From assembly GCA_947179485.1 (NCBI GenBank), contig OX359246.1:56895632-56959631 (forward strand): DNA of 64,000 bases. Direction: 5' to 3'. A program made the position numbers and the translations under genes. Below, one piece after another: positions 28,201-62,400 of this stretch. A model generated the notes under the pieces. That model was not told the DNA's origin. It did no database searches and saw only the letters and a program-made list of their open reading frames with translations. The DNA comes from Allacma fusca (taxonomy: Eukaryota > Arthropoda > Collembola > Symphypleona > Sminthuridae). How positions within the stretch are numbered: position 1 is the stretch's first letter; each line of letters opens with the position of its first letter.

Positions 28201-31200
28201 TATAAATAGTAAATTAGTCAGGACAGGACTCCACTATCATCAAAGACATAGCAAGGCAGAGGCAGACGTATCGGCATTTAACTGCATTACTACAGCTTCG
28301 CCATTCACCACAATTACATAATTAAATCAACATTAGGTCAAATCAGAGAGGATATTTTAGATGCAAATTTAAATACATACCTTGCAACGTTTGTGGAAGT
28401 ATCCAAGAAATTCTGCCCCGCTCCCTTACAATCCAATCCGATAGCGACGAAATCCACTTTGTATTCCCTCATCATCAATTTGAAGTCATCGTAGTTGAGC
28501 CAGTCTTTGTCGAGTCCGGAATCCTTAAACATGCCATTGATGAGCTGCGTGACCTCATCATCATGTAAGCTATTCGTCTTGGCAATATCCACCAAGGACC
28601 GTAACATATCAAATAACTCGGTCTTGTCAATCACTCCATTCCGATCATTGTCACACATGTCAAAAATGATCCGGAGCTTGTCCTCAGTGGAGCCTTTACT
28701 AAACAGGACCACAGTGTCCAGAAACTCCTGGAAGGAAATCCGCCCATCCCCGTCTTTATCCACAATATTGAACATTCTCTTGACGAAAACAGCATCCTTC
28801 TTCATACCCAAGGCCCCTGCGAACTCAGCTTGACTTAAGCTGGTCCTCATGACCATGACCACATCCGAACTAACATTCATCTTCTTCTCGCCGGGTTTGA
28901 GTCCAAAGGTCAAAGCGTAAGCTTCCCGGAAGAAGTGTTCTAAACGCTTCTCACGCCTTTCCTTCGTCTCAGCATTGGACAACATAGGTTCCCGGTAGGT
29001 TGGGATACTTTCCATAGTTTTTCCGATGCTCCTCAAAAATGCATCCAATTTTGCCAAGAACTTGGACCGGGCATGAGGGGACTCAAATTCGAGGACCAAA
29101 TCATGATCCCGAGGGACTCGAATGAGGATCATGGGCTTCTTACGAACGTCCTGAGTCACTTCAACGACCAGAACGCCCGTGTTACCCACATCCACACTTC
29201 GGAGTTTCTCCCCTTTCCGATTCAAAGTGTGGAATGCCTCTTCTGGGCCAAACTTTATTTTAACAACGCGCTTGTAATTTTGGTGGAGCCATTCCTTCAC
29301 GACCATCTTATCCACGGATTTCCCATTCTGTGATTGTCGGATCTTCAGTTTTCGACGACGGGAGTTCTGGAGCTTGACCACACCATAACCTGCGCCGGCG
29401 CAGATAATTGGCACGAAGCAGAGAAAGACGCATGAGTAGATGAAGGCAACTTCGTTCCCTTCGAAGTAGTCGTAACCTTGGATGAAGTTACAGGGTTCCA
29501 GGAAACTGGCGTTGAGCTGCTCGGGCTGTGGACATGGATTGCCTGCATTCCAGATGAAAACCTCTCGTTGGATTTCGGCGGAAGTTATACTTGTTGAGTT
29601 AATGATAACGTCACTGAGCTTGATCTTCTTTATCTCTTCGATTTCCTCTTTGGTGAATTGTCTATTCATACAAATGAGCAAATGATTATAATCTATACGT
29701 GATCTCATTCAATTGTTTGGATTGAAATAAGTCGAATTTAATTGTTTTGAGTACAATATGGTTGTGAAATCTTACCCATTTTCTTCATTCTCAAACCAGA
29801 ATCGATCTGCATCCCGAATTCGCTGGAACTGTTCCATAATCACAGTTCTAAAAAGTTCACCAACCCCACCACGGGACTCCAACATGCCTCCAACGTAGGG
29901 ATCCACATTGTGCAAGCCATGATATAATTTTTCCAGCTTCTCTACCACTTCTGGTGTCAGATCCGGGTTGACGTTCTTCCAATCGTCGATCCTCTTAAGT
30001 TTGAAGGATTTCCGGACGGTATTGTAATCAGGAAGACCGTTATCCCTTCCCCGCATGATATTTAAAGCACCCAGATCTCTCCGACTGAAATCCATCGGCC
30101 CGAATAATTTGTCTCGGACATCCGAACACAAGATGACGTCTTCACGTTCCGCAATTTGGGAACTCATGCCCATGAGTATCTCTTCGACGGTAGTGGGCGC
30201 AGTGATTCCTTCCTGAAAACACATGAGATTACACACCACATATTTAAGAGATCAAGGAGAAAAATTTTGGCTATTAGCACCATTAGTACAAAATATGTAT
30301 CTACTAAAAATAATGCAGCAAACATTACTACTCACATCAGATTCCCACCAGCTGGCGCAAAGACGCAATGCTTTATTCGCTCCGTTGGCATCTTTAAATT
30401 GGCACTTCCCATCTCTTCTGTAAATCCCTGGTGGGATCATTGTATGGCCGAATCGGAAAGCAGCGGCTTGGAACACATGAGATATTCCAGGGTCAAGGTC
30501 GGGCTTGTACCCTGTATATGCTGGCATTGAAGCGTTTAATAGGGCTGGCAAATACTCATATACAATAATGTTCTGGAAAGTAAAAAAACAATTTCTTTGT
30601 AACCAAACAATAATGCAGTAGCAGTGTTTAACGGCGACAATCTATCATTAAACAGTTTTTCGGGTAAATGGTACCAGTATAAATAATTGATATATTACTA
30701 GCTGGCAAAAGGTGTCCGCGTTTTTTACATGCAGGCCTATTAGTAGCCTATCTGTAGAATGCAAGGATTTTTTCGAAGAGCCTTACTCGCAAAATAGGGT
30801 TAGCAAATATGGGCTTAAAACCAAGCCAACAAAGCCGTGGGACCAACCACCGTAGAATTGTGGCAATATGTAAGCAATTGAAGCCTGAACCATGTCATTT
30901 TAGTACGACGGCATAATAGGACGGGTAAAATTAAAATTAAGGCACAAACAGTGCCTGGTACTTGCAAATTGTGTGGTCATTCGTCCGCCATTCAGCTTAA
31001 GTTTACGTATGAACCAGTAAGTGGTTATTTTTATAAATTCGTTTTATTTCATACTAAAACACACCGAAGCAAGTCCCATTCATGGGTAAAATTTTCTAGG
31101 TCAATTCGAGAGACTGACTCCGGAGTGTAAATGTAGAAGCAATTATCTGCGAGGACAATATGCAGACAGATTATTTCCTCAAGGCTGGTGTTGTGCGTAA

Positions 31201-34200
31201 GATGTAAGCTCTTGCAAATTAATACAAGTTATACAAACTGCTCCGAACTGGATTTGGCGAATATTTGTGCGAGGGTTAATTCATATACGGTATGAAATAC
31301 GGTTCTTAAAGTGCGGAACATTGAGTAAGTTCACACAATAAGCATACTGTCGACTTGCAAAAATCGAATACCTTAATGGGATTTAACATTAGAAATTTCA
31401 AGGGAAACAAGTGCCTTCCACCTTTGGTACTGACGTGGACTTTGAAAGTATGGAACCTTGAGGGAACAAGGCAAAATGTGTACGAGTTATGTGCTTGATT
31501 TCTGAAACATGACAAAGGGAGTACTAAGACATTTACAAGGTGACTGTAATCATTTGCTACCCCATATAGTCTATATGAAGGATTGACTCATTGAGTATTT
31601 GATTTCTCTGTTTGTAGAAAATTTAGTTCCAGATTGATTTCGGTCATATCCGAAATTCTAAAAGTAGAGATCTAAATAGCTCACCTGAAAGTCTATTAAA
31701 TCTTCTACAATTCCATTTGTAATTGAAAATAACTATGTGCGAGAATAATACAATGAAGATATTGTCATTCTATTAAAAAAAAACCTGAATTTGCTTCACT
31801 TGTTTGAACCCTGTGACATCAAATCTTGGGTAACTCCCTTATGTGGGTTAGGTACGGATGAGAAATGCTAATGATTTTTTTTGTAGACGGGGTGTGATAA
31901 AACATCTGCCCTAGCTCATATAAAAAACAATGTTGAATATTGCAAAATATGTTACTCCCCCATTATTGCCCACCAAATTTGTTTCCATATTAGAAAAAAT
32001 TTGGTTTGTTGACATCAGTCAAGAAAAGCTGTCAATAAATTGTCAACATTTAGACATTACAATTTATTAGTTTCTTGACAGAGTGTTTCCCCAAATATTT
32101 TTCGTAGTAAGTTTTCTGGCCATACTAATGAGCTATGTCTCATGATTGAGAAATGTGGCCATGACCCGTTAAAACAGTGAGGAAGGTTGAGAAAATTCAG
32201 CCTCAGGCTTTGGCCTTGTAGAAAATTTAATGGGGATTCAACAGCGTTTTATTTCATTTCTAAAGTATGACAAATATTTTCCATGATCCAAAAACTGTGA
32301 GGCATGTTATGCATTTTTTTAACATTTGATATCAGAAACAATACGCAAGTACATACAACCAATAACTAAGAAGTTGGTTGAAAAATAAAATACGTAGCTT
32401 CAGATATTTGAAAATGCCACAATCAAAATGCCTGCCAAGCTGAAAATGCTCTGAAAGTGCCCACAATATCCAAAATTAAAGTGCAGGTGACTTTCATACC
32501 ATAAATCACAATACCATAGACGTTCGCGCTCTAAGTACTTCCACAAACTGAAGGAATAATTATGTCAATTAAAAGAATCCCTAATTTCAACCTGTATTCT
32601 CAGATGTCACATGTCATGCCAAATGAAGTAACATTATAAAGTAAAAAGCAATGTAACATTCTGGAATTGAGCCTATCGTAACTCCCCATCTTGATGATCT
32701 TATACAGTGGTTCAACTCTAACAGCACCTGTTAATGTCTGCGCTTAACCAAAATAGTACCATACCCATAAGGATCCTTCAAAAATTCAAAATGCTTCAAA
32801 AATGACCAAAATGCCTAAAATGCCACTAAAATTATCAAACTGTATACACTCCTCCCCAAAGTTCCCCAAATGCCTTGGCATATCTGTATTCAAATAGCCA
32901 ACAATAGTAGTTGCATGAAGACTCTCGAAATATGACTGGGATAACTGTCGGATTATCCTATCTTTAAGCATGTATGATCCAAACGGTAGGATATAGTTAA
33001 TCACATCATCCGACCCTACCAGAACTTAGGGTTTAGACAAGGTCCATTCGATCGATTTGTGTTCAAATCAGAAAAACAACATATCCGGACCGAAACTACT
33101 GATATCCAAAAAGATGGAAGTCATAACGAAGGCTGTACGCATAATATGCCATCTTTGTAACACCTTTGCTAGCCAACAATTAATCCTTCAAAAAAGGCTT
33201 CGAACTCCTTGATTTCCACATAAAAGTAATGACTTACTTGTAAAGTCGCAATCACCCAGCGACGAGCTTCTTGAAAAATAGTGGCGTCATTCCAGTCAGG
33301 ATTTCTCTCTTGGAACCTCTGTGCCAGGACGTTATGCCATCGGAAGAAAAGAATTCCGAAGCTCAGAAGTGCAGGGTTTTGATTCGTTCGAGGGTCTCCA
33401 AGTACTAGAATTTTAAAAATATAGTGAAATAGTATTAAATCCCTCATATCATTTATTACAACTTTTTCCCTTGCCAACACTCCATTTTATTAGAATCACA
33501 TTTTGCTCCTTCTATTTATCGCCCTGCTATTACAGCAAGAGTGTACTGTATTGCATGACGCTCCTTTTTGTATATGTACGCTATCTCTTTAAAAAAAATC
33601 ACTTCTCTGCATTTATTACTATTTATAAATTCAGCTCTTGCCTTAGATTTTAAAATGCTCAGGTAACAATAGATATTTAAAACTTTGAACTATGCAATGC
33701 ATAAATTTGTCCCCATTTAAAAGATGCTCTTTAAAGGAGATATCTTATTCTCAGCATATGCATACATACATAAATACAGATTAATAATAATGTATGCGTA
33801 ATAATAATATTTAATAGCAAATCCACTCACAATACATCCTCTCCAACCGCTGTGGTCTGAGCTGATGAGCGGATGGTAAGTTGCTCATGGGTGCCCGGAC
33901 AGTGTTTTTCGGAGGTAGTCGTCCACTACTGTCAGCTTTGAAGGTACCATTGGAGTAGCTCCGCATTGCTGAGACCCAGGGCTCGGCAGTGGAGTACACA
34001 AAGCTCCCGTCGATCCAGCTGGTCTGTCTATTGACCTATTTGAGCGAGAATGAGAGGTAATAATTAATATTAAAAAAATGAGAAAAAAAAACTGATGATG
34101 ATAATCATGACGCCCTGATGTTATCTCCCGAATAACAAATGAGTTTGCCGTAGTAAAAATTTAAAATTAATGCTACTGTATGCTGATAAGCAGGGACATA

Positions 34201-37200
34201 AATAACTGCCCACTGTCACTCAGTAACTCACCTGCTCTCTAGGTCGATTAGGCCCCTGACCAGTTTTTAAGTCATAGCCAGCTCGATGGAAGGGCATGTA
34301 CTTTCCGCCTTGACACTCCCGATCATACATCTCATCACATTTCTCAATATCAATCCGATGCATCTCAATGGGGCAGCCACTCTCACTTGCCATGAGGATC
34401 TCACTACTGACGACCTGCCCGAAAAATGCTAACATTGCCGTTCGATTTGCCAATGACCCCAGGCCGTCCGTCCCTTTCATTAGCTCCTGGCTCAACTTCC
34501 GAGGACTGGGTCGGTCCATACCAGCGAGCATGTAAACCCCATCGGAGTAAGAAGCTGGGGCTTTCCTCTTCAGCTGGGCATCTATTAGTAATTTTCAGAA
34601 ATAATTATTTCATAATAATTATTGATGACTAACCCAACAATAATAATTATTGCTCCTTGTAATTTTTCCATTCACATATCTATCTATAATAATTACTCAT
34701 CCCACTGTGACTGTAGTGTTATTTGGAGTCAAGAAAAAAAAGTCAGAGGTTATAGAATATTACAGGATTGGGAGTGGGAGTGTGAGATTTGGGGCAACGT
34801 GATAAATTTCTCTTATGCAAAGATGCAAACTCACCAACAGCACCCAAGTCCAGAACATCTCGATTATTGTACCATCCATCATAGCGCTGTTTCTCCTTTC
34901 TGACTTGGCTCTCTGCAAAGATAAACCACAAAAACATACATGGCTAGAGAGTATAATGTAATAATCATAAATCAGATATCGACAGACAAGAATCAAATCA
35001 AAGATGGCCATTAGGATTGTTTGGTCTCAAGCCGCACACTCGTAATTAATCGAATTGGTTCATACTAAACTGCACCCCTACGCAATATGTACTTACTTAC
35101 TGTATACTTACTTACAGTGTTCTGAATGAAGGTTTCCCCCCGTACTATATAATGATATTATTTATTTACGAGTGATAGCAGCCGCTCTTGTAGTGTAGTC
35201 CCTTCATTGATTGTTGAACGGGAGTGTTGTTAAATATTGTGCGGAGGTATTGTGTAAACTATTGAATGGTAATAATACTGTATGTGTATTGTATTGTATC
35301 CTGTAACCTGCAACCTCATAAACTAGTAAAAGATGGATGGAAAAAAAAATAATTACGAGCACCTACTTACTCTTATTAGTGGTGCATAAAAACCAATAAT
35401 AAATTACTATAAATCAAATATGCTTGTGTGCTTGTGGGCATCATGACTCATTTGAGAAGGTAAGAAGGCCTGCTGCTGACCGAGGCATGGACATGTGTAT
35501 CCAGAGCTTTCAACATAGTAAATTAATTGCTAATTGAATGCCCAGACACATACATACATACACTTACACTCTCAATAGGATCAATCGAAACCTTGCCCTA
35601 TGTAGATATGAATTGAGACCATAATAATAATAATAATAATAATACTGTGAGCCTGTATGTATGTATGTACGTTCAGTGGTGAGGGATGTGAGAGAGTAAG
35701 TACTACAATACAAGATGGCAAGGAGAGATGTAAAAAGAAAAGTAACAATAGTTTTGGGTGCGGTTTAAATATCTCCATCCCTCGCCTTCCAAGCCTCGCG
35801 TATAGTTAGTATGTAAAGTAAGGCATCAAGTGTAGAAATAATATGATGGTTAAACCAATAATTTATTACAAAGAGAGAAAAATAATTTTAAAATATTGTA
35901 CCAGGACCCATATGCTCGTACGTCTGTAATTACTGTATTGGACATGCTGAAAAAGATTATTTGTAATGGGCTAAGTCATAGGGCTTCTTGTGTGTGCATA
36001 CACCTTCATTCTGAGAGGGCTGGTGTACTTGTAATTACACTTTGGGTCAGACAGACAGCCAGTGAATCAGGTGGAACGATTATGTCTCAACGGCGTGGCA
36101 AGACACTAAATCCATTCCGTTAGGACTGATTATTACTCGTGAAGTTTTCAATGAGTAAATATATACAACTGCCACTTATACTGTATATAGTATAGATACC
36201 TACTGTAACTCCAATAAGTGGAGTGAAGTCAGCTAAAATCTTTGATTATGACGGCATATGTCCTAGCTTTCAGCGGGGCAACATGAGACAGGATACACCT
36301 ACAGACAGCTAAAGGTTGAGCATTTCTTTATCACAGTCACAAATCTCAGAGGTAACTTGGGATATTAGAGTTGGGAGTCAAAATGAGTAGCTGCACAAAT
36401 ATATGTTCCCCTGTTATGTACTACAGATGTTCCTCCAACCCAAGACAAAGTAACAACAAGCTCACAATATAAAAACAACATTTACATGGCACCATACATG
36501 TTTGTATACAAAAACAAATTACGGAGCCTCGATAAATGATTCAGGCTCAGGCAGAGCTCTATAATATGTGCCGCTCTATCCATAGAATCTTGTGGTAATT
36601 ATGTATCTATTGCATTTGGACACGTCATATGTAATCATGTATAGGGGTATGGTATACCCCTATATTAAGGTTTCCTCCATAATATTTTCTACAAGGCAGG
36701 AATAGTATCGTATCATACAGAGAAAAACATGTGTAGTCTGTATGCACGGCTAAGGGTCATATGTACACTGATGTAGGGAGACAAATGAAATATCACAGGT
36801 GCCCATGATTTGTTCACGTCAGTATAATTTAATATAAGCAAATAATTGATACTGTGGCCAATGCATAGATTTTCCAACCATTTGTCATTCAAGGTGACCA
36901 AACACACTATATGACTGCATGACTCGGCTATAGGTGTCTGAGGAGATTACTCAAACCACTAATCTTTATTGTCAATGTTTCACTTATGGATTTCAATTTC
37001 CTCTCCTCAATGTCAGCATACAATAATATAATCGTAGATTTTAGGGAAACTATTTTGGTCAGTCAATTTTGTCATCACTATATGGACCCTCGGCGTCTTC
37101 AGCCAAATTGTATGTGATGAGTATGAAGTGTAGTAGGCAAACAAGCTTTTGATAGGAATGTAATGCTGATTGTGACTGAGGGATATGTCAGAAATAATTT

Positions 37201-42232: not shown

Positions 42233-45200
42233 TTACTCGAATTTGTTGACTATGGAAGGGAACCGCACCAGTCTGAGCTGAGCACCGTAGTCACAAAGGA
42301 CTGCTCCACCGCAGTTGATGATCTGACGTACAAAAATTGTATTATCACGATGTCCGAGTCGAACTGACCGGACAGGATTGCCACTCTGGACATCCCAAAC
42401 AATTAGAGAACCCTACAAAAATCAATCAAGCAATGTTAGTTTTCAATGAGCTGTAAAACTGTTGTTGCACAGGCCGCTGAAACAAAAAAAACATGCCCAG
42501 GTTACTGCTGATTACTAACTATAACTCGTACCTGTTTGCTAGTAATGAGTAAATTATGAGTGAGCATCACAAGGCTAGAGGAATAAGCGTGGTCCTGTAA
42601 AGAATCCAAAACAATAGTGACAATCAATTCCTAAGTGGTGTTATACAGCTAGTTAAAAAAACACTTTAAAATTGAAATTCAAGTACCAATTGAATCGTGT
42701 TAAGTAAATGCCCTTGAAACCGTTCCCAAACACAGATTTTGTCATCCCCACCCACACTTATAATGTAACTAGCTGAGTATGTTAAGCCTGTGGTGGGACC
42801 GTCGTGCGCCTGAATTGAGTACATGCAAGCACCTGTTATCATTTGTAAACAAGAGCAAATTAATATGACTTTGCAACACAGATGCGGCAGTTTGATTCAA
42901 TGAAACGCTTTCAAAACATTTAAATTTCAAAATTTGTTCATATAAATACGAGCTAACCAGTTTGTAAATCCCAAACACACAGCATTCCATCCTGGCTCCC
43001 ACTCCCTGCAGCCATGGGGGAATACTTATCAATGAATAAACTTGTAATTGGTCCATAGTGACCATGGAGTGTGTACAAGTGAGACGTATCTTGAAGCCGA
43101 AAAACCTGCAGGGTAGATGCACAATCAGAATCATAATATTAAATGATTGAAGTTGTAATGGACACATAAAAATTAAAAGTAAGTATCAAAAATAGAATCA
43201 AATCTGATACTTTTAGAGTATGATCTTGACTCCCGCTGACAATCTGTCCTCCATCTGCATCTAAACAAGTTATAGGCTGCTGATGTGCTCGAAGAGTTGT
43301 CAACCAGTTGCAGCGAAATTCATTTCCACTCAGTAAACCTGAATTCGCATGATTGCTCTGAGCCATGTCTTCTGGGGCACTCCCTACAATAAAAAAATAT
43401 TTCCCATATAAATAATCCCTGCAAACTTGCAAACCATGCTGCGTCACAGTTTTAGCTTCGATCCACTCTAGTAGACTGCATAACACTTTCAGCATCACTA
43501 GCTCTCACTGATTTGTAAGACTCATCCATATGCATGACTTTAATTTTGTTGGAATGTTGTTGGTTTAATTTAAATGGATTTCAGCCTTAAAGCAATACCA
43601 AAAAATCTTGCTGCTCTGACAGAGCGCACACCTAATTTCTAAAGCTAACCAAACAGGAATCTTGACGCTGTCGTTTACAATTATAGTGCATAAAATATGT
43701 TATCACAAATAACAATTTGCTCACAGCGGTGGTACGGATTGGATTTTTGATTATGGTTTGATAGTCCATCGTTGGCTTCATCAACGGAATCCAGTTGGAT
43801 AAAATCCAACGAGCCATTAAGACGCGCAATGACGATTCGAGCTCCAATTATTTTTGTGCAAGTTATTCCAGATCTTATTCCTTGGTCAAATGTGGCCTAA
43901 AATTAAACAATCCGCAATCTGTAAGTTTTCGTTACGGTGGATCAAGTAGGTAATGTCAAACTAATTCTGAGTTAAATTAAAATAATGTAACTAAACTATC
44001 CACTGAAATGTAATCCACCTTCAAAGCTCCTGTGAAACTATCCCAAATTTCCAGTCTACCAGTTCCTGTGCCCAAAGCAATTATTCGATTGTCAATATCC
44101 AAACACCAAACAGGTTGTTTACTCATCTTAGCTTTACTACGGACATACTCATCCGTGTGTTTGGACCTCTGGGGTTCATCGTTTGAATCCGACTCTTCGT
44201 TGTCAGTCCCTTCAAAATATCTATAACCACAAGTTGTTCGTCATGATTGTTTATTATTGATACCAAAATATAAATAATTTAATTGTTATTTCATAAAAAA
44301 TTCAAATAATAACGTTTAAATAATTTTGAACACCCTGTTTTACTAACAAAACAATGTACTGTTTCACTTCACCTCTTTCGATCAACGCTAGCGATATTTT
44401 CGGCATTAGTGTTCCAAATTTTGAGGACACCATTGAGACAAACACTGGCAATTGTGTTACCATCAGAGCCAATGCACTCTACTTCTTGAATATGCCCAGT
44501 CATGACCAAAGGTACAGCCTCGAATATAACCTATAAAAATCATTGCGTAGATACGAAATAAATTAATAATGTTTTGTTATCGAATTCTGAAAAAAATATT
44601 TGATTTTGATAGAGCAAATGACTTTAATATTGTATTACGAATATTTCCTTAAAATATTCCCATTAGGTTTACACGCATAATAACTCACTTGAGTATAACT
44701 ATCTTCATCCTTATCATTTGAATTCCAACTAGATCTCCACTCTGCATAATTTCTTGAACAGACACAACGGTAAAACACAACCAGACCATAGCATATGAAA
44801 ACCAAGCTTGGGATCGCCAGAAGGAGCGTTAGCATGACCTCAATCGGTGACGATGGAATGTAGGGGTCTTCGAAAGGGTAAATACTTTTTTTGGTCACTG
44901 AATTTTGATTCTCGTCATCTAAATATAAAACACTGGGAATTTAAATTTACATTTAAATACTATCACATAACTTGTATAATTATTACAAGTTCAAATGCAT
45001 AACTCTCGATGTAATTAACATAAACCCCATACCAAAAAACTCAATGTTGCTCTTAGGCTTTTGTCGACCTTTTGAAATGAAGTCCCAGTCAAACTTATTG
45101 TTGACATTGAATAACGTCCGTGAATTAATGTACACAGTGATGGAAGGGAGGATTTGTAAGTATTTGTCAGTAACGGACACATTATAAATTGACACCAAAG

Positions 45201-48200
45201 TTTGCCAGCAATTAGATCTCTTGACAACATTGTTAGAGTGATCAAAAAACTCAAAATTATTCGGGTTGGATAAACTACTTCCAAAGGAAGTGATATTGTT
45301 TAGGATACTACCGCTACCACTACTGCTAACACCACTGCTAGAAACACTGATATTTCTTAGGAAGGTACTCCTGGGTAAGACGATGTCCACTTCCGATTCC
45401 ATCATAAGAAAGTTATGGCTAATTACTTCATACATGATTATACTGATCCAGCCGATCATAATTATCATGAAGGTTCGTTGGAAAAAGCGGGTTTTCGCCC
45501 AAAAGTACACCAAACGAAGCCGCTTAGGAATTTTAACCATGTACGGGGACACAGCTGGAGCAATTATTTCCCGAGAATTCAAAGTGGTGGCTGATAAATT
45601 TGGATGTACGGGAGTTCGCAACGGCTGGGTATACCGAGTGGTGGAACTCTGTTCGGATTTCCTTATATCTAATGAAAGGATGGTGCCGTAGAAAAATATC
45701 TGGAGGAAGAAATCCGAGAGAATCCCAACAATAGCCAAGATACAAAATTCTTGAATTCGAGGGAAGAAAGTAAAAAATCCTATGGTTAGAATCGTTACTT
45801 CGAAAAGCACATTTTTTGTTATGCTCAGTCCATCTTTGCTTAATGCCTAAAAAAGTAACACAATTCTCAATTACATTTCCAAATCAAACTCGAAAAATCG
45901 GTAAGGTAAATAACAATAAAATAGACAACTCTTAAAAAAAATTACTTGTGCGAATCGAATCTTCACATCTAAATTCACATTGGTTGACACCACAGAGCGT
46001 GTCATGACCAGAACGTTCTCCAGCCCCACAATTCCAATCAAATAAGGAAAAATTCGACTATTAATGTTGACATTCATAACGGAACTAAAATACGTGCAAA
46101 GCCCTATGGACACACAAAGGCTAGCGATGATAGTCAGGAGAGCACTACAAGACACTCCCACTTTTGAATGAATAATCTCAATTTTTTTAACAGAAAAATA
46201 AATGTACACAAAAAGTATGATGTAAGTAGAGGCCAAAGGGATAAACTCTATATAACTCTTGCTGGGTGGATAGTAAATGTAGGAAGTCTTGTTCGAAAGT
46301 TTGAAACTGAAGTTTTTTTCATTCAGCTTGGAAACCAGCGAAGTTGTAAAACTATAAAAATCAGGTTATCAATTAGAATAATTACTTTATCCAACCATCT
46401 TCAATGATGTACCTCAAGAGTTACTGCCATAAAAACCGTTACTAGATCAGAACTTACTCGTTGTCTTGATTATTTAACGCAATGGTAATTGCATATGTCA
46501 AAGTCCTACTTCCAGAATTTCTTGTAAAGGGATGCAACTTAAGCCCGGTTTCCCGAACATTCATTCCTAACAAAATTTCTGCCAGTCCACTCCTTCCCTG
46601 CTCATAACTTTGGTAGTTAAGGATAGTTCTGACGATGTTTTCATCGCTTTCAAACTTCACCTGACTCTCCTGCCAAAAATTCGCTGGAGAAACTATCAAG
46701 CACTTGTTCTCAGGTAGCATACTCTTCTCTTTCAGTAACTTGGATTTGATTTCCTTCACGAGGAAGCAGGACTTTGATAAACTTCCGCTACAAACCAAAA
46801 AATAAAACACAATTAGATACTCAAAATAAACTCCTTCCGTTAATAAGAAGCATAAATATTACACCGATTCATTTAAACACATTACTATGGACGACTCCAC
46901 CAAACATTCTTCTCCCTACCTTAAACAACTCAGCATTCTTATCTTATACCTCTTTGAAAATTAAACATAACCAGGGACAGCTGTTAATAATAATTTCTGC
47001 AGCAGCACAAGAGTAATAATAAACAATACAAATACAAAAACTATAGCCACTAAACGCAAGTAACTGACTAATAATAATTTTTAAGTAGAAGATACACTAA
47101 GATTCAATCACAAGTAAAATTTGTCCTATAAGAACACAAAAAAACGATGAAAATTAAATAACTAATTCAGTACGAAAGGAGTTAGAGCGAAATACTCTGA
47201 CAGGTTGTGAAAGTTGTTTTATGGCAGGCCGCACACCACCCCGAAAATCGGATTTTCAGTTTAAAGGGAATATCGGAGGAACTGTTTACTCCATTTTGGA
47301 ATAATTTGTCTCAAACCGAAACTAAAGGAAGCGGGTACAACTATCTTCAAACTTTTTACAGGCAAAATCACAATATTTCCCCCCCCCCCCAGTTAGCTAC
47401 ACATTTTGAGATTTTGACTTTAAAATTGAATTCAGCAGCAATTCCGAAAAACAGCTGTAAACACCTTTGCTAATTTCTAGCAGAATGATTACAAAATTGT
47501 GCCTGAAAATTCCGCGACACTCGCAAAACCCGATTTTCGGGGTGGTCAGTTGTGCGTTGTCTACCTTGCAACAACCTTCACAATCCATCAACGCACTTCT
47601 TTAGTCCCTATTTCCATACGCAAAATCACGTTTTTAAATTCCATCCCTTTAATGACATCATGCTAATGTAAATATCGAAAAGATGTCTAAAATCATGAAT
47701 ATATATATATATATAAATAAACCAGACTGAATGCATACGCGGTCTGAACAGCATCCAAAATCTGAAAAACAGGTCTGAAGGCTTGACGGAATTCATTATT
47801 GCTTTGATTGGCATTCCAATTGACAGAAGATTTGATGATGACTTGTTGAATGTATATAACCGGCCCGGATGTTTTTTGCTGTAACCATCGAGGCCATTCT
47901 TCCCTGTCCGAGTCCAAACTAATACCAGACTGAAAATTAGTTGTAAAGTCCTGCGGCTTAGCACCCGGCAGGGGCATATGTAATAAGGGATAGCTAAAAG
48001 AGAAAAATGAAACATCTAGTATTAGTACACAAAATCAAAATCACAGTAGTCCAAAAAACAATGCTAACCGTGAACTTGTGTACATCATCAAATTAGTTCA
48101 ATATAAATGTATAAATTGAATTCTTTAACAACAATCAATCCCATTCTATAAATACAAGAACTTAAAATTGTATTGTTAACAAATAGTTACAAATTAAGAT

Positions 48201-49664: not shown

Positions 49665-50182
49665 CCCATAAGTAGTGCTGTAATATTGTACTCGTTTAGT
49701 TTGTACTTTTGTATTGTTTTTGTCTTTTGGTACAAAACTAAACAAACAATATCCATTTTCGAGATACAAAGCTAAAACAAAAACAAAACATGAATTGAAA
49801 AAACAATACAATCCGAATTGTATTGTTTCAAGGTTCTAGAAGACGCTATAAATTTACTAAAGTGGTTGTTGTAATAGATTTCTAGAGCACATAGGAATTG
49901 ATTTGTGTAATTGGAATAGTGAAAAAACACGTCAAAGCACAAAAACTGGGCATTAAATAATTATCGGTAGATTCGCCTACTATCGCCCATATAAAATATA
50001 TACTTACATTGAGTCTGTCATTCTAGTGTCATGTGACCATTAATGCGCCAATAAAGTCAATCATAGGTGAATTACTGTTAGTTACTCACCAAGTTTCATT
50101 ATAGTTTCATGCGCCCCTTAAAACCGTAATCTGTCATGAGACTATTGGTGACCCAATAAGGTCAATTTGAGGTCACATGACC

Positions 50183-50290
50183 TTACTGTGTCACTAATAG
50201 TCACATGATCTAAGATTGGCCTTACCGTGCCACTAATAGTCACATGACCTCAGAGTGATATTACTGTGTCACTAATAGTCACATGACTTT
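50183..50290. repeat. 39-bp tandem repeat, nearly 3 copies, inside the fold-back element
   Basis: Copies begin at 50,183, 50,222 and 50,261, each opening TTACYGTGYCACTAATAGTC and continuing ACATGA. The last third of the unit varies more. A diverged related sequence (GTCATGAGACTATTGGTG) lies just to the left near 50,130-50,150, partly inverted. Confidence 0.8.
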
Positions 50291-54000: not shown

Positions 54001-54818
54001 TGATAAATCGGAGAAACGTATTGCCCGCACCCGCCTAGACGCCTATCCCAAATAAATAAAACCGGTTCTTTTACAGATGAATTACATAATTGTCATTTTT
54101 CTAAGTCAGAAATTCCATTCTCAGTAACTAAAAATGAATTCTAACTTTCATTTCTGTCAAACAGTGCCGCGCTCAATTGAAGTAAATTCCATGATAGTGA
54201 ATGTTTTCTCGGACAGTCTGGAATAGGCTGTCCATATTTTTTGAACCCCAAATCAGGACTTTTACTTAAAATAATTCATATACATATAAAATGAAAATTG
54301 TATGTATCTAACAGATGCAGATAGTTTACAAGAATACCGGAGATCGTATTTTTGGTCTAAAGCTTGACAGCGTTGTGGAGTCTTTGAACTACGAACCAGC
54401 GTCGAATTTACTTGCCATTAAAGGGGTGACTTCTTCTATTCCTTTGGCAGCTCCTTTCTGAAAACCAAGATATTGTTATTCAGATGACTTCCAGAACCTA
54501 TTTGATGTAAAGTAAATTACAACAGGGAAAAGTAACACTACTTTTGAAGTTCTTTTTAACTGCACAACTAATTATGCATTGTAAAAGAAACACAGGTGTA
54601 CTAACGTAAATTTTAAATCAACGTTTTTCTTACTTCCGAAAATTTGGAAATTTTGACTTTTGGGTTGTAGGATTGTGCAGCTCAAAAGTCTCAATATCGG
54701 TCACATTTTCACAAATTGTATTATCCTAAAGATACCATACAAATGAAACAACTATCCTCATCTCATAATTATATTTTTTGTCCTCAATTGTTACCCATAT
54801 GTTGGCAGACATACATAC
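51003..54818. other. Intergenic sequence between two transposable elements
   Basis: A/T-rich sequence without a gene I can support. Open frames at 53,277-53,605 and 51,244-51,498 are low-complexity and unlike known proteins. A short palindrome with ATTCGAAT arms around a TA run lies at 51,836-51,870. Confidence 0.55.
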
Positions 54819-55123
54819 TGTAATAGTTGAAAGTAGCTTAGCTCAGACTAGTTAGGCACACTAGTATAAGATAGTACAATAGGTGATAGAATAGAGATCG
54901 GGTCCAACGCGTCTAATCTGGTCCAAGGTCAGAATTAGATTGACCAAATTTATTTGATCATCCATTGTAAAGTTATAGTAGCCATAAGTTAGCATAGCAG
55001 TAGGAAATGAGCGATATTAATATAAATTTAAAGTAATGATTCGATTCTAGAATATTGTGAATAATGACAAATAATGTTTGGTAATTCTAGTCATCCTTAG
55101 TCGTAACTATGTCGATTGTAACA
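54819..55123 (-). repeat. 3' LTR of the retrotransposon
   Basis: 305 bp, matches the other LTR over its whole length. By eye about 18 substitutions and one 3-nt indel separate the two copies, so roughly 94 percent identity. The insertion is therefore not recent. Confidence 0.9.
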
Positions 55124-56483: not shown

Positions 56484-59400
56484 TTATTTCAAATGGGCCG
56501 TTCCATCGTGGCATAAATGTTTGTACAAAACCAGGTTTTCTGGTAAACTCCGCAATGAGTACAATATCTTTAGCACGGAAAGGTATGATAAGGCATCGTA
56601 CTTTTGTTTTTCTTTTCTTCTAAATATCTCAGTTATTTGTTTTGCAACATCTCTTGAAAACGTTACACGTTTTTCGTTGTAGATTGGGTTAAAATTTGCT
56701 AAACATTCTTTTAATGGAGGGATAATTTTATCACATGGTAGAAATGGTTCACGGCCCCATACTAAGAAACACTGGGAGCATTTTGTAATTGAGTGATAAG
56801 TCACATTATGAGCATAAACAGCACAGGGGAGTTGTATGTCCCATTCATTGTGGTCTTTCGATACAAATTTGGCCATAGTTCTTTTTAGTGTGTCGTTATT
56901 CTTTTCTGATAGACCATTAGCTTCGTGACAGTTCGGCGGAGTATTAATTAATTCAATTTTAAAATAGTTGCAAAACTATGTAAAGTCCTTTAAAGTAAAA
57001 ACTGTTCCAGGATCTGTTTTTATTTTGGCCGCCGTGACGTTGTAGGATTAAATTTGTGATTGATTTGATAGCGTTGAAAGAATCTTGAGAGGGAACTGGT
57101 GTAGCTTCTAGCGTGTTAGGTGGTCGTTGATGATGAGTGCAAATTTGTTTCCATTACGTGATTCCGGGTAGGGTCCTTGAAAGTCAATTCTTAAGTATGA
57201 AACGGAGTATCTGGTACTTCTAAAGGTCACATTGGTCCGGATTCTGGAAAATTGCGACGATTATATTTCTGGCATATGTCACATCCATTAATGAATTTTA
57301 TAACGAGTTTTCCCATTAATATCGATTTTGCAAGGTGTGAAGTGTTTTGATGATTCCAAGATGACCTCCGGTGAGACTATTGTGGACTGATTTTATAATT
57401 TCTAACTGAAGGGATTTTGGAATGTAGATTTTGAAAATATTTGTACTATAATTCAATTTTGATTTGTGTAATACGACTATGATTAAAAAATAGATGCGGA
57501 AGGAATTCAGGTTGATTACGGTTATATGTTTTATGATGGGTTTTATTTGTGGGCCCAGTCTTTGATGTTCGATGAGTCTTCGTGTTTCTGGTATATTAGG
57601 AGGTATGGTGATTGATAGCAATTGATCTTCAGGGAAGTCTTATTCACTTGATGTTGATTCTGATACCGGGTTCCTGGAGAGTGCGTCTACATGTGCGTGC
57701 TTCTTCCCCGAATTAGAGATTACTTCGAAATCGTATTCTTGTAATCTTAAAGCCCATTTTGAAAGTCTGTCTGATTTTAATTTATTTGTTCTCATTAAAT
57801 AGCATAATGAGCAATGATCTGTAACTACTTTAAAATGTTTTCCAAAGATGTAAGATCTTGCTTTTTCGATTCCATAGATCACTGCTAGACATTCGATGTG
57901 TGTAATATCCCAATTCTTTTTATTTTTGTTTAAACTTCTGGACAAAAAAGTGCTCCATTTTAAATTCCCAAGTACTCTATCGATTAGTCGTTGGCAAGAA
58001 TATGGGCTGTCTACTAATCCAAAAGGCATTCTATTCCAAACGTAGTTTCCATACGGTGTTGTGAAAGCTGATTTATGTTTCGTTTCAGGGTCCATTGATA
58101 TTTGGTGAAAAGCTGAAAAGTGGTCTAGTGTACTGCAGTATGTGAATCCATGTAATCTGTCAAGTGCGTCATCAATTCTTGGTAAAGGATGACTTGTCTT
58201 ATTTGTTTTCTTGTTTAGTAGTCTGAAATCACAGCAGAATCGGTGTTTGGATCCGTCAGGCGAAGACTTTTTACAAAGTACAACAGGTGGTGCATACGGA
58301 GAATCTGTTGATTCGATTATAATAGTTTCTAGCATTTCGTTTATTTGTTTATTAATTTCTTTGCGTTCTAATTGGGATACTCGATAAGGTCTACATCTGA
58401 TAGGAATATCATCCGTGGTTTCAATTCTGTGTTGGACTAAGTTGGTTTTACCAAGTTCATTAGTGTTAAATGCAAACACGTTTCTGTATTTTGTAAGTAG
58501 TCGTATTAAGGTGAGGGTCTGTTTATCTGTTAGATTATTTGAGTAGTTGAGGTTGTTGATATCTGAATCTATCGGGATCTTATTGGAATTTGTTGTAGGA
58601 TTGGTATGATTTAATTCTTCGGGGGAAGTTATTGTGTCAATATTGCATAGTACGTCTGCAGTTGAGAATTGTTGAATGACTCCGATAGTTGTTTTTGATG
58701 GTAAAATTATTTCTGAATTAGTTGGGTTTGTAAATGGTGCTGCGGTGGTTTTCACTATAAGTTAGAGCTGCTGGTGTCATCAGTGCAACCTTTGATTGAA
58801 ATTTTGTTGAAGGTTCGAAAAGAGAAGGTCCTAATTGGTTGTTGGTTGTAATTTCGATTTGTTGTGTTGTATGGGCAGGAATGATGGTTGATTCTGTGAT
58901 TTTAACTGTGCTGATTCTGGATTGATTAGGGGAGGTTGTTTATTTGCGTGATTTCTTTGTTGATGACTCGGATTGATTGAGGCCGTGTGGTTGTTCCAAT
59001 CGAATTGTACATTGAAAGGCTACATTCAAGTAATATGTAAAATGACCATTGTAGTTGATGGTTTTGGAGTTCACTTGGAAGTGTGACTTTCTTCTTGATT
59101 AATGGCATGTTTGTAGATTTAGTTGCTAGTGATAATCTTCTAGGTGATTGTAAGTTGATGATATTAAGTCGTACATTAAAAGGAAGGGAATTAAAAGTTG
59201 ATTCATTGATGTCTGAAATTGTTGCTCCGGTGTCTGCTAATGCTTGAAATGTTGAATTGGAGATTTTGATTTGTACTTTTATGAGCTTTGTGTTTTCAGG
59301 GTTATTAGAAATATCCGTATCTTCTTCTAATAGTTCTTGAGGGCATTTTGTTTTTGTGATGTTGTTGATTTTAGCATCGTGGTGAATAGTTTCAAGTATG

Positions 59401-59534
59401 GTAGTTTGTATTGAAAGGTCTTCAGTCCGGATTTGTTTAAGTTGTATAATTTCAGTTTGGGTACTTGTGGATTTCATCTGACGGTGGGAGGAAGCCGTGT
59501 TGAATTTGTGTGCCTGATGATCTCCCTTCTTCAC
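56484..59534 (-). pseudogene. Broken pol: protease, reverse transcriptase, RNase H, integrase
   Basis: Fragments in several frames. Protease frame 58,926-59,534 has the active-site DTGA near residue 101. The RT/RNase H frame 57,640-58,755 runs for 371 codons. It has the RT fingers and first catalytic Asp (STLD), then MPFGLVDSP, and then jumps from DRVLGNLKW straight to SRSLNKNKKNW of RNase H. The second RT catalytic block (YxDD) and the linker are therefore missing, an in-frame deletion of roughly 170-180 residues near 57,945-57,962. The RNase H part keeps VTDH and a terminal HVDALSR. Integrase is split: His-His finger in 57,316-57,621, then a frameshift before the Cys-Cys half. The core retains recognisable Asp, Asp and Glu neighbourhoods but is interrupted by stops and shifts, and its C-terminal part is the frame 56,484-56,876. 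Not functional as it stands. Confidence 0.9.
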
Positions 59535-59686
59535 CAGGCTAGTTAGTTTCCCGATCGTCAGTTTTGATCCTTGCTTTAGGGATAATGTTCGGTGGGATTG
59601 GTCTTGTAAGTCGTTTGTAGGTGATTTACTTGAATGTTGGAAGTATTGGTGTTGTTGTAGCGTGGTAGTTTTAAATGGTTGTTGTT

Positions 59687-60904
59687 TTATGAATAACTGT
59701 TACTTCGCTTTGAATTAAATTGGTTTTGTTGATTATTAGAATTCCAAGTATGTTGAGTTGAAGGTGTACTGTTTCGTTGTTGAAAATAGTCGGTTGAATT
59801 AGAAGTAGAGTTGTTTGTATCGTTTAACCATCGTTTGAAAGATCGACAATCTCGTAGCTTCTGGGTGTTTGTATTGCAGAATAAACAAGTATGGGCTGTG
59901 GTTGCTTGAAAAGTTGTAGTTGGAATTTGATTTGACGTATTCGGTGTTGGTAGCAGAGGTTGGTTGACATTTTTCATTGGGTAATTATAAAGTTTCGTTA
60001 TGGGTATTGAAGATTGTTGTTGTAGGGGTTGAGTGTTGAGATTGTAATTTGGAAGTATAGTACTGCAGCTGTTTTTGGAACTGATCGATGGTACCATCAG
60101 CTCCAAGTTTCAGTTGGATATTCCAGGTTAGTTCCTGAGGTAGTCCTTGGTATAGGTAATCAAGTTTACAAGGGTCAGACACTGCAGGGTACATACGTTT
60201 CAAGATGATTAACTTCTTATAAATATAATCACGGGCATTGTCTGTTTGGGCTGTGAATGTGGTGGTAAGATTTACAGATGTTGCGATGGCTTTATCGTTC
60301 TTTTCTGAAAATGCCTTATGAATGAATTTGTTCCTTATTAATTGAAATCCTTGAAACGCTGTAGGGAGTTGGCGATGTTTAAATTATCTAGAAAATTGTC
60401 GTTGGAAAAATTCCACCAATGTAGAGCTGTTCCTTGGAGCAGGGAATCCATATTTTCGAATTTCCATTTGTCAGTCAGCTCTAAGTGAGTACATTTATAG
60501 TTCAAGGATTTCAGCCAAGCTTTAGATGAGGATTGTCCATCGTAGGTGGGAATATTGGAGAATATTTCGTTCGGCAAAAATGAAGTCATGTTTAGTATCT
60601 ATGCATCCACTCCTGTCCGTCTGGATCAGTCAAATCAATTGCCAGTATAGGGTTATTGACGAAGCCTTCAAGGGTGCGTAGTTAGTAGATAACTGAGATG
60701 TTTGATAATTGTAGGTGTAGGATGTGATCGGATGGTGACTATTTCGTCTTCATATTTTGAATAGAAAATTGTGTTGGTAGTGGGAATGTGAATGTTGGTT
60801 TCCAAAGATTGATCGGTTGGTAAGGTGTATTGCTTTAATAAGATAAAGTCTGGAGAGTGGTAATCGTCAGATGAAACGTAAGCAAAGATGTTGATGAGGA
60901 CCAT
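59687..60904 (-). pseudogene. Broken gag
   Basis: An ATG at 60,904 in a strong start context (ACCATGG) opens a frame that is shifted near 60,660 and stops. A second frame starts at 60,589 (MTSFLPNEIF), shifts near 60,350, and continues through KRMYPAVSDPCKLDYLYQGL to a further shift near 60,050. The last part, to 59,687, has a zinc-knuckle-like motif CLFC...C at 59,846-59,887, with Gln where the usual His would be. The middle frames resemble retroelement capsid in spacing of Trp and Leu but this is inference. Whether the 60,904 frame is the start of gag or a separate small frame is unclear. Confidence 0.75.
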
Positions 60905-61036
60905 GGTGTTGGCAGTGAGAGATATTCCCGGTCGCGGTGACTTCCACACTATTTCTATAAGTGTTTATGAATTTTGAAAAAATTGGGCAGGGGTTTATTC
61001 TAAATTTGCACTTATTCTTTCGTTTTTTCTCTTTTT

Positions 61037-61398
61037 TTAACCCGGAATAATCCGATGATTCGCCGTAGGTTAATAATAATATCCCGGAAAGTCAGATGAC
61101 AAACCGTAGGATATTCACTGTAGAAAATAACCCGGAAAGTCCAAAGACCTACCGCAGGTTATAAAAGAAATGTGCAGGAGTAGTTTCCCGGTAAAGGTTA
61201 GTAAACTCAACCGTAGAAAAACACAGAAATAAAAACTTCAATAATCCGGAAAGTCGTTATGACCTACCGTAGATTATGGATAAATATCACTTTACGATAT
61301 TCCGGTAAAGGTTGTTAAACCCAACCGTAGAATATCAGACTATATAACACTAAATAATTTTCACAACCCGGAAAGTCGTACTGACCTACCGTAGGTTG
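61037..61398. repeat. Array of seven covarying hairpins in the retrotransposon leader
   Basis: Units at 61037-61073, 61078-61115, 61127-61162, 61183-61222, 61241-61277, 61296-61336 and 61364-61398. On the plus strand each reads: outer stem, CGG, unpaired AAA or similar, apical stem, 4-5 nt loop, apical stem, unpaired CTA/CAA/AAA, CCG, TA, outer stem. Outer arms differ but pair: TTAACC/GGTTAA, AATATCC/GGATATT, ATAACC/GGTTAT, (unit 4 imperfect), ATAATC/GATTAT, GATATTC/GAATATC, CAACC/GGTTG. Apical arms also differ but pair: AATC/GATT, GTC/GAC (four units), GGTT/AACC and GGTT/AACT. It lies between the 5' LTR and gag. No hammerhead core is present. Function unknown; packaging, dimerisation, translation control or protein binding are possible. 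Confidence 0.85.
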
Positions 61399-61584
61399 AG
61401 GGGAAATGATAGCACACGGGGAGGTAAACGTGCTGTTTTTTTGTGAAAAAAATGTGTGTAAAATCGAAAGATGTGTGAATAATGTGATTTGTCACTGTGT
61501 AAGGTGAGGAAAATGGCACTTGGTGTCAGTGAAAGAAAAATTACCGTGAAATTCGAGAGGATATGTCACTAAAAACCGGCGCCT

Positions 61585-61892
61585 TGTAATAGTTGAAGGT
61601 AGCTTAGCTCAGACTAGTTAGGCACACTAGTATAAGATAGTGCAATAGAAGGTGATAAAATAGAGATCGGGCCCAACGCGTTTAATCTGGTCCAAGGTCA
61701 GAATTAGAATGACAAGATTTATTTGATCATCCATTGTAAAGTTATAGTAGCGATAAGTTAAAATAGCAGTAAAAAATGAGCGATATTAATATAAATTTGA
61801 AGTAATGATTAGATTCTAGAATATTGTGAATAATGACAGATAATGTTTTGTAATTCTAGTCATCCTTAGTCGTAACTATGTCAATTGTAACA
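61585..61892 (-). repeat. 5' LTR of the retrotransposon
   Basis: 308 bp with TG...CA ends. Carries a 3-nt insertion relative to the other LTR. It is the 5' LTR because gag and pol read away from it on the minus strand. Confidence 0.9.
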
Positions 61893-62400
61893 ATACAGTT
61901 GTGTCACTATTGACAACGAAGATTAACTTAGGAAAAACATTTATTTAATAAAACATTTTAATCAATTTCAGGAATAATAGATTTAATGAATGCATTCAGG
62001 ACTTCACAATGGAAATGTATTCAAGCATAGGCTTAATGACTGAGGAGGTAACTACTCCAAAATAAAGTTAATCACTCTTGTTTTGTCAACCGACCTGCCC
62101 GGAAGTACTCATTTATACTCTTGGTCACAGTACCCTTTCTGAGTTACACTCACCATACCTCTACCTCTTTTCCTCCTCTTACAATAAAAATCTTTTAATC
62201 ATGAATATTAACTGCTCAAAACTTACGACATTATTTACTCGTCCAAAAATCGTGTTTTTATGGTTTTTACAACTGCTAGTAATTCCTTGTGAGCTGAAAA
62301 GTTTCTGTACATTTTAGAACAACTTTGGTTCTGATAATTTACAAGAATCTGAAGTTCGGCTTTTACACTCAATGCTTAGCACGTTTCGCTGGGTGGTCTA
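61893..62400. other. Short spacer right of the retrotransposon
   Basis: About 500 bp of A/T-rich sequence, starting with the ATAC target duplication. No supported feature; the plus-strand frame at 62,078-62,317 has no recognisable domain. Confidence 0.5.

Follow-up and report, generated by a model that had tools for sequence, protein, structure and literature searches.

A tandem array of covarying RNA hairpins in the leader of a Ty3/gypsy-type retrotransposon of Allacma fusca and its possible role in genome packaging

Introduction

The packaging leaders of retroviruses and of Ty1 are single folds with distinct parts. The leader of the Drosophila gypsy element carries the Su(Hw) array, a series of DNA sites for a zinc-finger protein with no known covarying hairpins, and the TAR-type bulged hairpin occurs in a single copy, with a loop sequence that matters. 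How animal Ty3/gypsy elements choose the RNA that they package is, to our knowledge, little known. Structures of the 5' leader with roles in packaging or dimerisation are described for MMTV (PMC8096270) and for Ty1 TIPIRT (PMC5454406). For the Sireviruses, a further report describes palindromic motifs that recur and bear a CGG-CCG signature (PMC2829016).

Here we examine a window of 64 kb from the genome of Allacma fusca, in which an initial annotation had noted seven tandem hairpins on one plan in the leader of a retrotransposon. A search of the literature on such arrays and on gypsy/Ty3 leaders, with a coverage from which subscription papers were mostly absent, yielded no description of one in the text that was accessible.

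Results

The carrier element

The window sits on a 75.6-Mb contig of the 392.7-Mb A. fusca assembly, which was the genome searched. Its minus strand contains a broken Ty3/gypsy-type LTR element that runs from 61892 to 54819, with the following features in the order of transcription.

61585..61892, minus strand: 5' LTR, from LTR comparison
61567..61584, minus strand: presumed primer-binding site (PBS), beginning AGGCGCCGG directly after the 5' LTR
60587..60589, minus strand: probable gag start codon, in a start context common to related copies
59687..60383, minus strand: gag pieces in broken frames, with a zinc-knuckle remnant that has lost one ligand
58926..59699, minus strand: protease-like frame (PF13975, E 0.00047, below the gathering score)
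57640..58761, minus strand: reverse transcriptase (RT)/RNase H frame (PF00078, E 1.1e-17; PF17917, E 3.6e-22)
54819..55123, minus strand: 3' LTR, from comparison with the 5' LTR

The two LTRs differ by 18 mismatches and 4 gap columns over 305 aligned positions, and ATAC at both ends of the element (54815-54818 and 61893-61896), read by eye, represents a 4-bp target duplication. The two LTRs, the PBS after the 5' LTR and the order gag, protease, RT, RNase H identify the carrier as a Ty3/gypsy-type element. Among the best 120 of 236 matches, the named relatives of its RT/RNase H frame were arthropod gypsy-type elements, one of them from A. fusca. The integrase frame found no match in a Pfam search and matched a frame in the related locus L031, and the zinc knuckle that lacks one ligand here is intact in relatives. 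The array starts about 185 nt past the end of the LTR and ends about 450 nt ahead of the probable gag start, which confirms that the hairpins lie in a retrotransposon leader, between PBS and gag on the minus strand.

Elsewhere in the window, host genes occupy 26272-34594 and 43139-46858 on the minus strand (dual oxidase exons and a SCAP-like gene with a sterol-sensing domain), and a tandem repeat of 39 bp is present at 50178-50287 in 2.8 copies with 84% matches.

Architecture of the hairpin units

All seven hairpins were found at 61037-61398, on one plan. Because the element runs on the minus strand, the hairpins of the transcript are the reverse complements of those quoted in the initial annotation.

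61364..61398, minus strand: hairpin unit 7, the first past the PBS in the RNA
61296..61336, minus strand: hairpin unit 6
61241..61277, minus strand: hairpin unit 5
61184..61220, minus strand: hairpin unit 4, whose outer stem pairs on the sense strand via U-G
61127..61162, minus strand: hairpin unit 3
61078..61115, minus strand: hairpin unit 2
61037..61073, minus strand: hairpin unit 1, with the cap C-UUCG-G in many other copies

Each unit, read on the sense strand, has an outer stem, then a 2-nt 5' bulge and a CGG/CCG clamp, and, beyond a small internal loop rich in U, an apical stem with its cap. The clamp is 3-4 bp long and of the GGU/ACC type, and the caps are mostly 4-5 nt. Of the 75 anchored distinct units, 65 have TA as the bulge. 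In six of the seven window units the outer stem comprises 5-7 Watson-Crick pairs; in unit 4, pairing past the first pair exists on the sense strand only, through a single U-G. A profile built from the seven units and run on the 64-kb window recovered those seven, all on the minus strand, and two further weak mirror matches (E 0.015 and 0.032).

Rfam gave no match to the whole window on either strand. A search of 60900-61500 at E<=10 returned two matches only, both far under their gathering scores, and no ribozyme. The array is outside every RNA family described in Rfam. As far as Rfam goes, the earlier statement that the plan fits no named leader element therefore holds, as does the statement that the hammerhead does not fit; neither the hammerhead nor any other small-ribozyme family matched.

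Covariation among the seven units

We re-paired the 5' arms of the seven units with their 3' arms in each of the 5040 possible orders. The true order gave 38 outer pairs and was the sole order to reach this number, with a mean of 16.6 over all orders. The outer stems thus vary yet pair, as had been proposed. The same proposal for the apical stems received weaker support, with 48 of the 5040 orders equally good. The three apical pairs were formed in only 76% of alignment cells, because units of differing length fall out of register. The covariation score of the seven units was 0.418 compared with 0.197 for shuffled alignments (none of 500 shuffles was as high) and did not exceed 0.147 when the structure was slid along the alignment. 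The number of further pair types, a weaker measure, was equalled in 44 of 500 shuffles. In our own implementation of an R-scape-like test, no individual pair was significant in the seven units alone (best E about 0.45), and the covariation summed over the structure was 45, greater than in all 200 nulls (maximum -10).

Covariation and strand across genome copies

Leader-matching places numbered 28 in the genome, the window included, two of them identical duplicates in the leader. At E<=0.001 the hairpin profile found 149 units in 26 non-identical loci, of which 92 were distinct and 75 were distinct in anchored columns. The covariation test across copies used 1000 tree-preserving nulls and 378 pairs. 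The top two pairs both belong to the outer stem (E 0.014 and 0.085), and the best non-structural pair had an E of 3.3. Summed over the seven outer pairs, covariation was 152.9, compared with a null maximum of 99.3. Five of the seven outer pairs and the nearly invariant clamp showed no individual signal with these nulls. Single-pair significance is modest across copies, with one pair under E 0.05, and is reached only when the other copies are added to the seven units.

Across the 92 distinct units, the five innermost pairs of the outer stem (460 pairs) comprised 406 Watson-Crick, 31 G-U, 4 A-C and 19 other combinations. Because many of the G-U pairs represent one inherited pair of unit 4, we also counted events by parsimony, as means of 50 reconstructions. 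In the outer pairs there were 18.1 G-U steps (10.5 from Watson-Crick and 7.6 back) and 4.5 A-C steps (3.5 from Watson-Crick and 1.0 back); 10.2 changes from Watson-Crick to non-pairs other than A-C count against the maintenance of pairing. In the clamp we counted 2.7 changes to G-U, 2.0 to A-C and 5.0 to other combinations, nearly all on terminal branches. A cause at the DNA level predicts equal numbers of G-U and A-C, and the excess of G-U on the sense strand indicates that RNA rather than DNA is conserved. Such strand-specific pairing, with G-U tolerated on one strand, is what is expected of an RNA element.

Folding calculations gave a consistent picture. The sense version gives the better fold in all seven window units and in 81 of 91 distinct genome units (2 ties and 8 opposite). 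When pairs are limited to a span of 60 nt, the sense leader retains the hairpins (in unit 4, only the clamp at the counted positions), and the antisense forms them too. In free folds, units 1, 3 and 4 compete with other pairings in the sense strand, and about five units do so in the antisense.

Orthologous stems were compared in pairs of copies. Between L003 and L023, six positions were taken in each of units 2-5, and one of the 24 was left aside where L003 is unpaired. Fifteen pairs were the same, 4 had changed on both sides and were paired, 3 had changed on one side and were paired via G-U, and 1 was broken. Hence 7 of the 8 altered pairs remain paired, and the broken one lies at a stem end. 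The corresponding counts (same, both-side paired, one-side paired, broken) were 13, 3, 4 and 3 for L003 and L028; 18, 2, 2 and 1 for L003 and L019; 12, 3, 1 and 1 for L003 and L021 (three units); and 7, 2, 2 and 1 for L003 and L027 (two units). Across the 15 full-length leaders of 26, mean pairwise identity was 0.945 in cores, 0.964 in outer arms, 0.887 in linkers, and 0.806 and 0.711 outside the array, with gap fractions of 0.013, 0.010, 0.042, and 0.069 and 0.202, respectively.

Two of these copies have peculiarities of their own. L027 (C8:56961092-56961331) is a diverged second array about 1.5 kb past the end of the window, on the strand opposite to the window's copy, and L028 has in the apical part of unit 3 (L028:1605-1667) a G-rich insertion that looks like a telomere repeat.

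A scan of the genome with the core pattern gave 81 matches compared with 7 for a mirror control. Known copies account for 62 of these and a fragment (C10:40720182) for one, and the remaining 18 are at other places and form no cluster; the pattern is blind to the hairpin versions of L071 and L075 described below. A second leader query returned the same places and the fragment C10:40720182. Searches of viral contigs with the hairpin pattern, the RT and an RT alignment confirmed nothing, and a DNA search of plasmids gave no match. The core pattern was also met by two other repeats. The first, CTACGGTTTCTGTCCCGGAGGATTTTCCGG, stands at 7 places, counting a variant that differs by one letter (for example C8:34975451 and C12:56744245). 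The second, CTACGGTTAAAATAAATTGTTTTCCGG, occurs in two pairs, C10:10080208/10088453 (8.2 kb apart) and C10:44493741/44502442 (8.7 kb apart), which are perhaps LTRs.

Versions of the array in RT-bearing relatives

A search of the genome with the RT gave at least 112 matches (110 of 2642 first-look candidates were scored). Two lie about 2.3-2.4 kb downstream of the L003 and L013 arrays, and the L018 array locus also has an RT piece. About 30 further RT places, of 70-88% identity and some of them fragments, were absent from the array searches. The place expected for the leader was retrieved for five of the RT relatives: L071 (81%), L072 (80%), L073 (80%), L074 (76%) and L075 (71%). Four of the five have the hairpin plan there, in other versions; in L072 the expected place had no match to the element and no leader was seen.

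A strict scan found seven units in L071, seven in L074 and four in L073. Their version has a 1x2 loop and a CGGU/ACCG clamp, the latter damaged in unit one of L071. Its apical stems include UGCUA/UAGCA, and its outer arms include CAAGA/UCUUG and UAUAGC/GCUAUA. The best outer arms summed to 73, compared with a shuffled mean of 48, and none of 500 shuffles did as well; several outer stems in arrays of the L071 type are just 2-3 bp, and the units are in part recent duplicates of one another. The profile of the window units recovers just a single unit in each of L071 and L073. L075 (301 bases, with no PBS seen) has three units with a UGGU/ACCA clamp, the best of which consists of an outer stem GACU/AGUC, a 5' bulge AA, the clamp, one U per side and an apical stem. 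None of 300 shuffles equalled the L075 scan, which serves as a guide only, since its pattern was picked after the sequence was seen. The CGG/CCG clamp, nearly invariant among the units found by the profile, is not fixed throughout the group, as L075 shows.

Overall, these comparisons show the predicted hairpins to be a real RNA structure with a plan that is conserved across a group of elements. The other copies and subfamilies support the view that the fold was selected while the element was active.

Relatives without pol

In each of four relatives, L037-L040, pieces of Gag and protease-like pieces are present, and neither the RT frame nor the integrase frame of the window has a match at E<=1e-4. 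Two identical repeats of 244 bp stand 3.0 kb apart in L039 (copy L006); the repeats of L040 (L002) are 98.0% identical over 298 bp and those of L037 (L019) 97.4% identical over 272 bp; and L038 (L004/L005) repeats in tandem every 3185 bp. Their LTRs match the LTR of the window over its last few dozen nucleotides only, with L040 also matching weakly (61%) over most of it. The gag-like frames of L039 and L037 contain a CCHC knuckle. For the three frames compared with Pfam, two from L039 and one from L037, no family reached E<=1, and none of 239 candidates for the L039 Gag in the protein collection reached E<=0.001.

All four elements retain the array, at 77-92% identity to that of the window. 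Its retention despite the loss of pol points to a role in cis in replication and not in pol expression. The array thus lies in the leader of the genomic RNA and is kept in non-autonomous copies, as would be expected of a packaging signal.

Two of these elements have further features. In L038 (C9:8169300-8176300), short elements stand in exact tandem, with 100% identity over 3415 bp. L039 has no RT, and its gag-only layout is unusual; a second basic P/S-rich frame (L039:2691-3467, plus strand, 17% K+R) overlaps the end of gag and closes in an extra CCHC knuckle.

AUG avoidance in the leader

ATG triplets were counted from the PBS-like GGCGCC to gag in the 13 of 28 loci that were countable, with one of them a duplicate and L011 set aside. 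ATG is absent from L006 and L023, compared with 6.7 and 6.5 expected, and in each case none of 200 shuffles was as low. Ten other countable leaders have 1-3 ATG each, and so low a number came up in 0 or 1 of 200 shuffles. L071 and L073 are free of ATG from GGCGCC to beyond the array. In L006, L023, L071 and L073 the ATG-free stretch from GGCGCC measures about 640-830 nt. This avoidance of AUG fits a leader that ribosomes would scan.

Discussion

The comparisons across copies show stems and caps that appear free to change provided that they mostly pair, and a fold that is kept on the sense strand. We propose, with a probability of about 0.5, that the array is a multivalent protein-docking module for packaging of the genomic RNA, probably bound by Gag. 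The array would act in cis within the genomic RNA of the element. The bulge, the clamp and the U-rich loop would together form a recognition site, and about seven repeats of the site could give binding of high avidity. The likeliest partner would be the element's own Gag, which has a CCHC knuckle in relatives, a guess from the position of the array and the presence of the knuckle. Loading with Gag would mark the full-length RNA for packaging and could also halt its translation, because ribosomes must scan through the hairpins. Among the roles offered in the initial annotation, packaging by protein docking would fit best. Kissing of the loops is not indicated, as the caps vary and a 4-nt palindrome is present in just 13 of 91.

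A host RNA-binding protein, acting for example in nuclear export of unspliced RNA or in translational control, might dock on the array instead of Gag. The structural evidence fits this explanation equally, since the traces of a host protein would look no different, and the plan is kept even though the Gag pieces of relatives are, piece by piece, about 35-88% identical to those of the window. On the other hand, 63 of the 81 core matches belong to this element group, no array of this version was seen in a host gene, and the core differs between subfamilies (L075), which suggests a partner that changes together with it. We consider a host protein unlikely, if still a serious competitor.

An internal ribosome entry site (IRES) or ribosome-landing structure for the translation of gag would account for a structured leader upstream of this gene. 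AUG is avoided in the leaders, as cap-dependent scanning would need, so that an IRES is not required and this role, also offered in the initial annotation, is improbable.

The conserved core letters, and the tandem sites in the gypsy leader, would also suit an array of DNA sites with an insulator or enhancer function like that of the Su(Hw) sites. Such an array leaves both the covariation of the stems and the excess of G-U over A-C on the sense strand unexplained, and we regard it as very unlikely. Equally hard to credit is a mutational artefact, in which template switching fixes the hairpin arms without selection. Quasipalindrome correction yields paired changes in a single step, and reverse transcription favours template switching. 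However, this process would not explain why the bulge (TA in 65 of 75) and the mismatches of the U-rich loop persist, why G-U intermediates exceed A-C, or why the linkers change more than the hairpins. Finally, a new self-cleaving ribozyme, suggested by the conserved unpaired letters, can be dismissed almost entirely: no Rfam ribozyme matched at E<=10, outside the bulge and the U-rich loop no unpaired core is invariant, and cuts between PBS and gag would sever the genomic RNA, parting the primer end from the genes.

The docking of Gag could be taken a step further. It is possible, and we put it forward tentatively, that the docking array is an RNA code that coevolves between the genome and the Gag of each subfamily. 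The architecture would be kept as the letters of apical stems, outer stems and clamp turn over, and the relatives without pol would keep the module in order to be packaged and copied by the enzymes of the long copies. The recurrence of one hairpin across several subfamilies and dozens of copies constitutes a natural series for testing a recognition code between RNA and Gag, and the series also bears on how elements without pol are mobilised.

Comparison with known systems

The Su(Hw) array resembles the hairpin array in its tandem reiterated sites within the leader of a gypsy-type element. A TAR-type hairpin shares with the units a lower stem, a small bulge and an upper stem as a docking geometry for protein; in contrast to TAR, the units form a tandem array and have free caps. 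Like the units of the array, the Sirevirus motifs are short dyads with CGG...CCG that recur in the non-coding DNA of an LTR element, but they belong to plant Ty1/copia elements and lie in the 3' LTR, with some at the 5' side of ENV (PMC2829016). In the accessible part of that report, these palindromes are likened to transcriptional activators and no bulge or internal loop is described (PMC2829016). We rejected the array as a Sirevirus palindromic repeat, as it lies between LTR and gag in a Ty3/gypsy-type element and has bulges. The leaders of MMTV and Ty1 are like the array in being structured sense RNA in the 5' leader region of an element that replicates by reverse transcription. The array differs from them in that about seven homologous hairpins, all built on a common core, follow one another, and we infer that it would work like a packaging leader.
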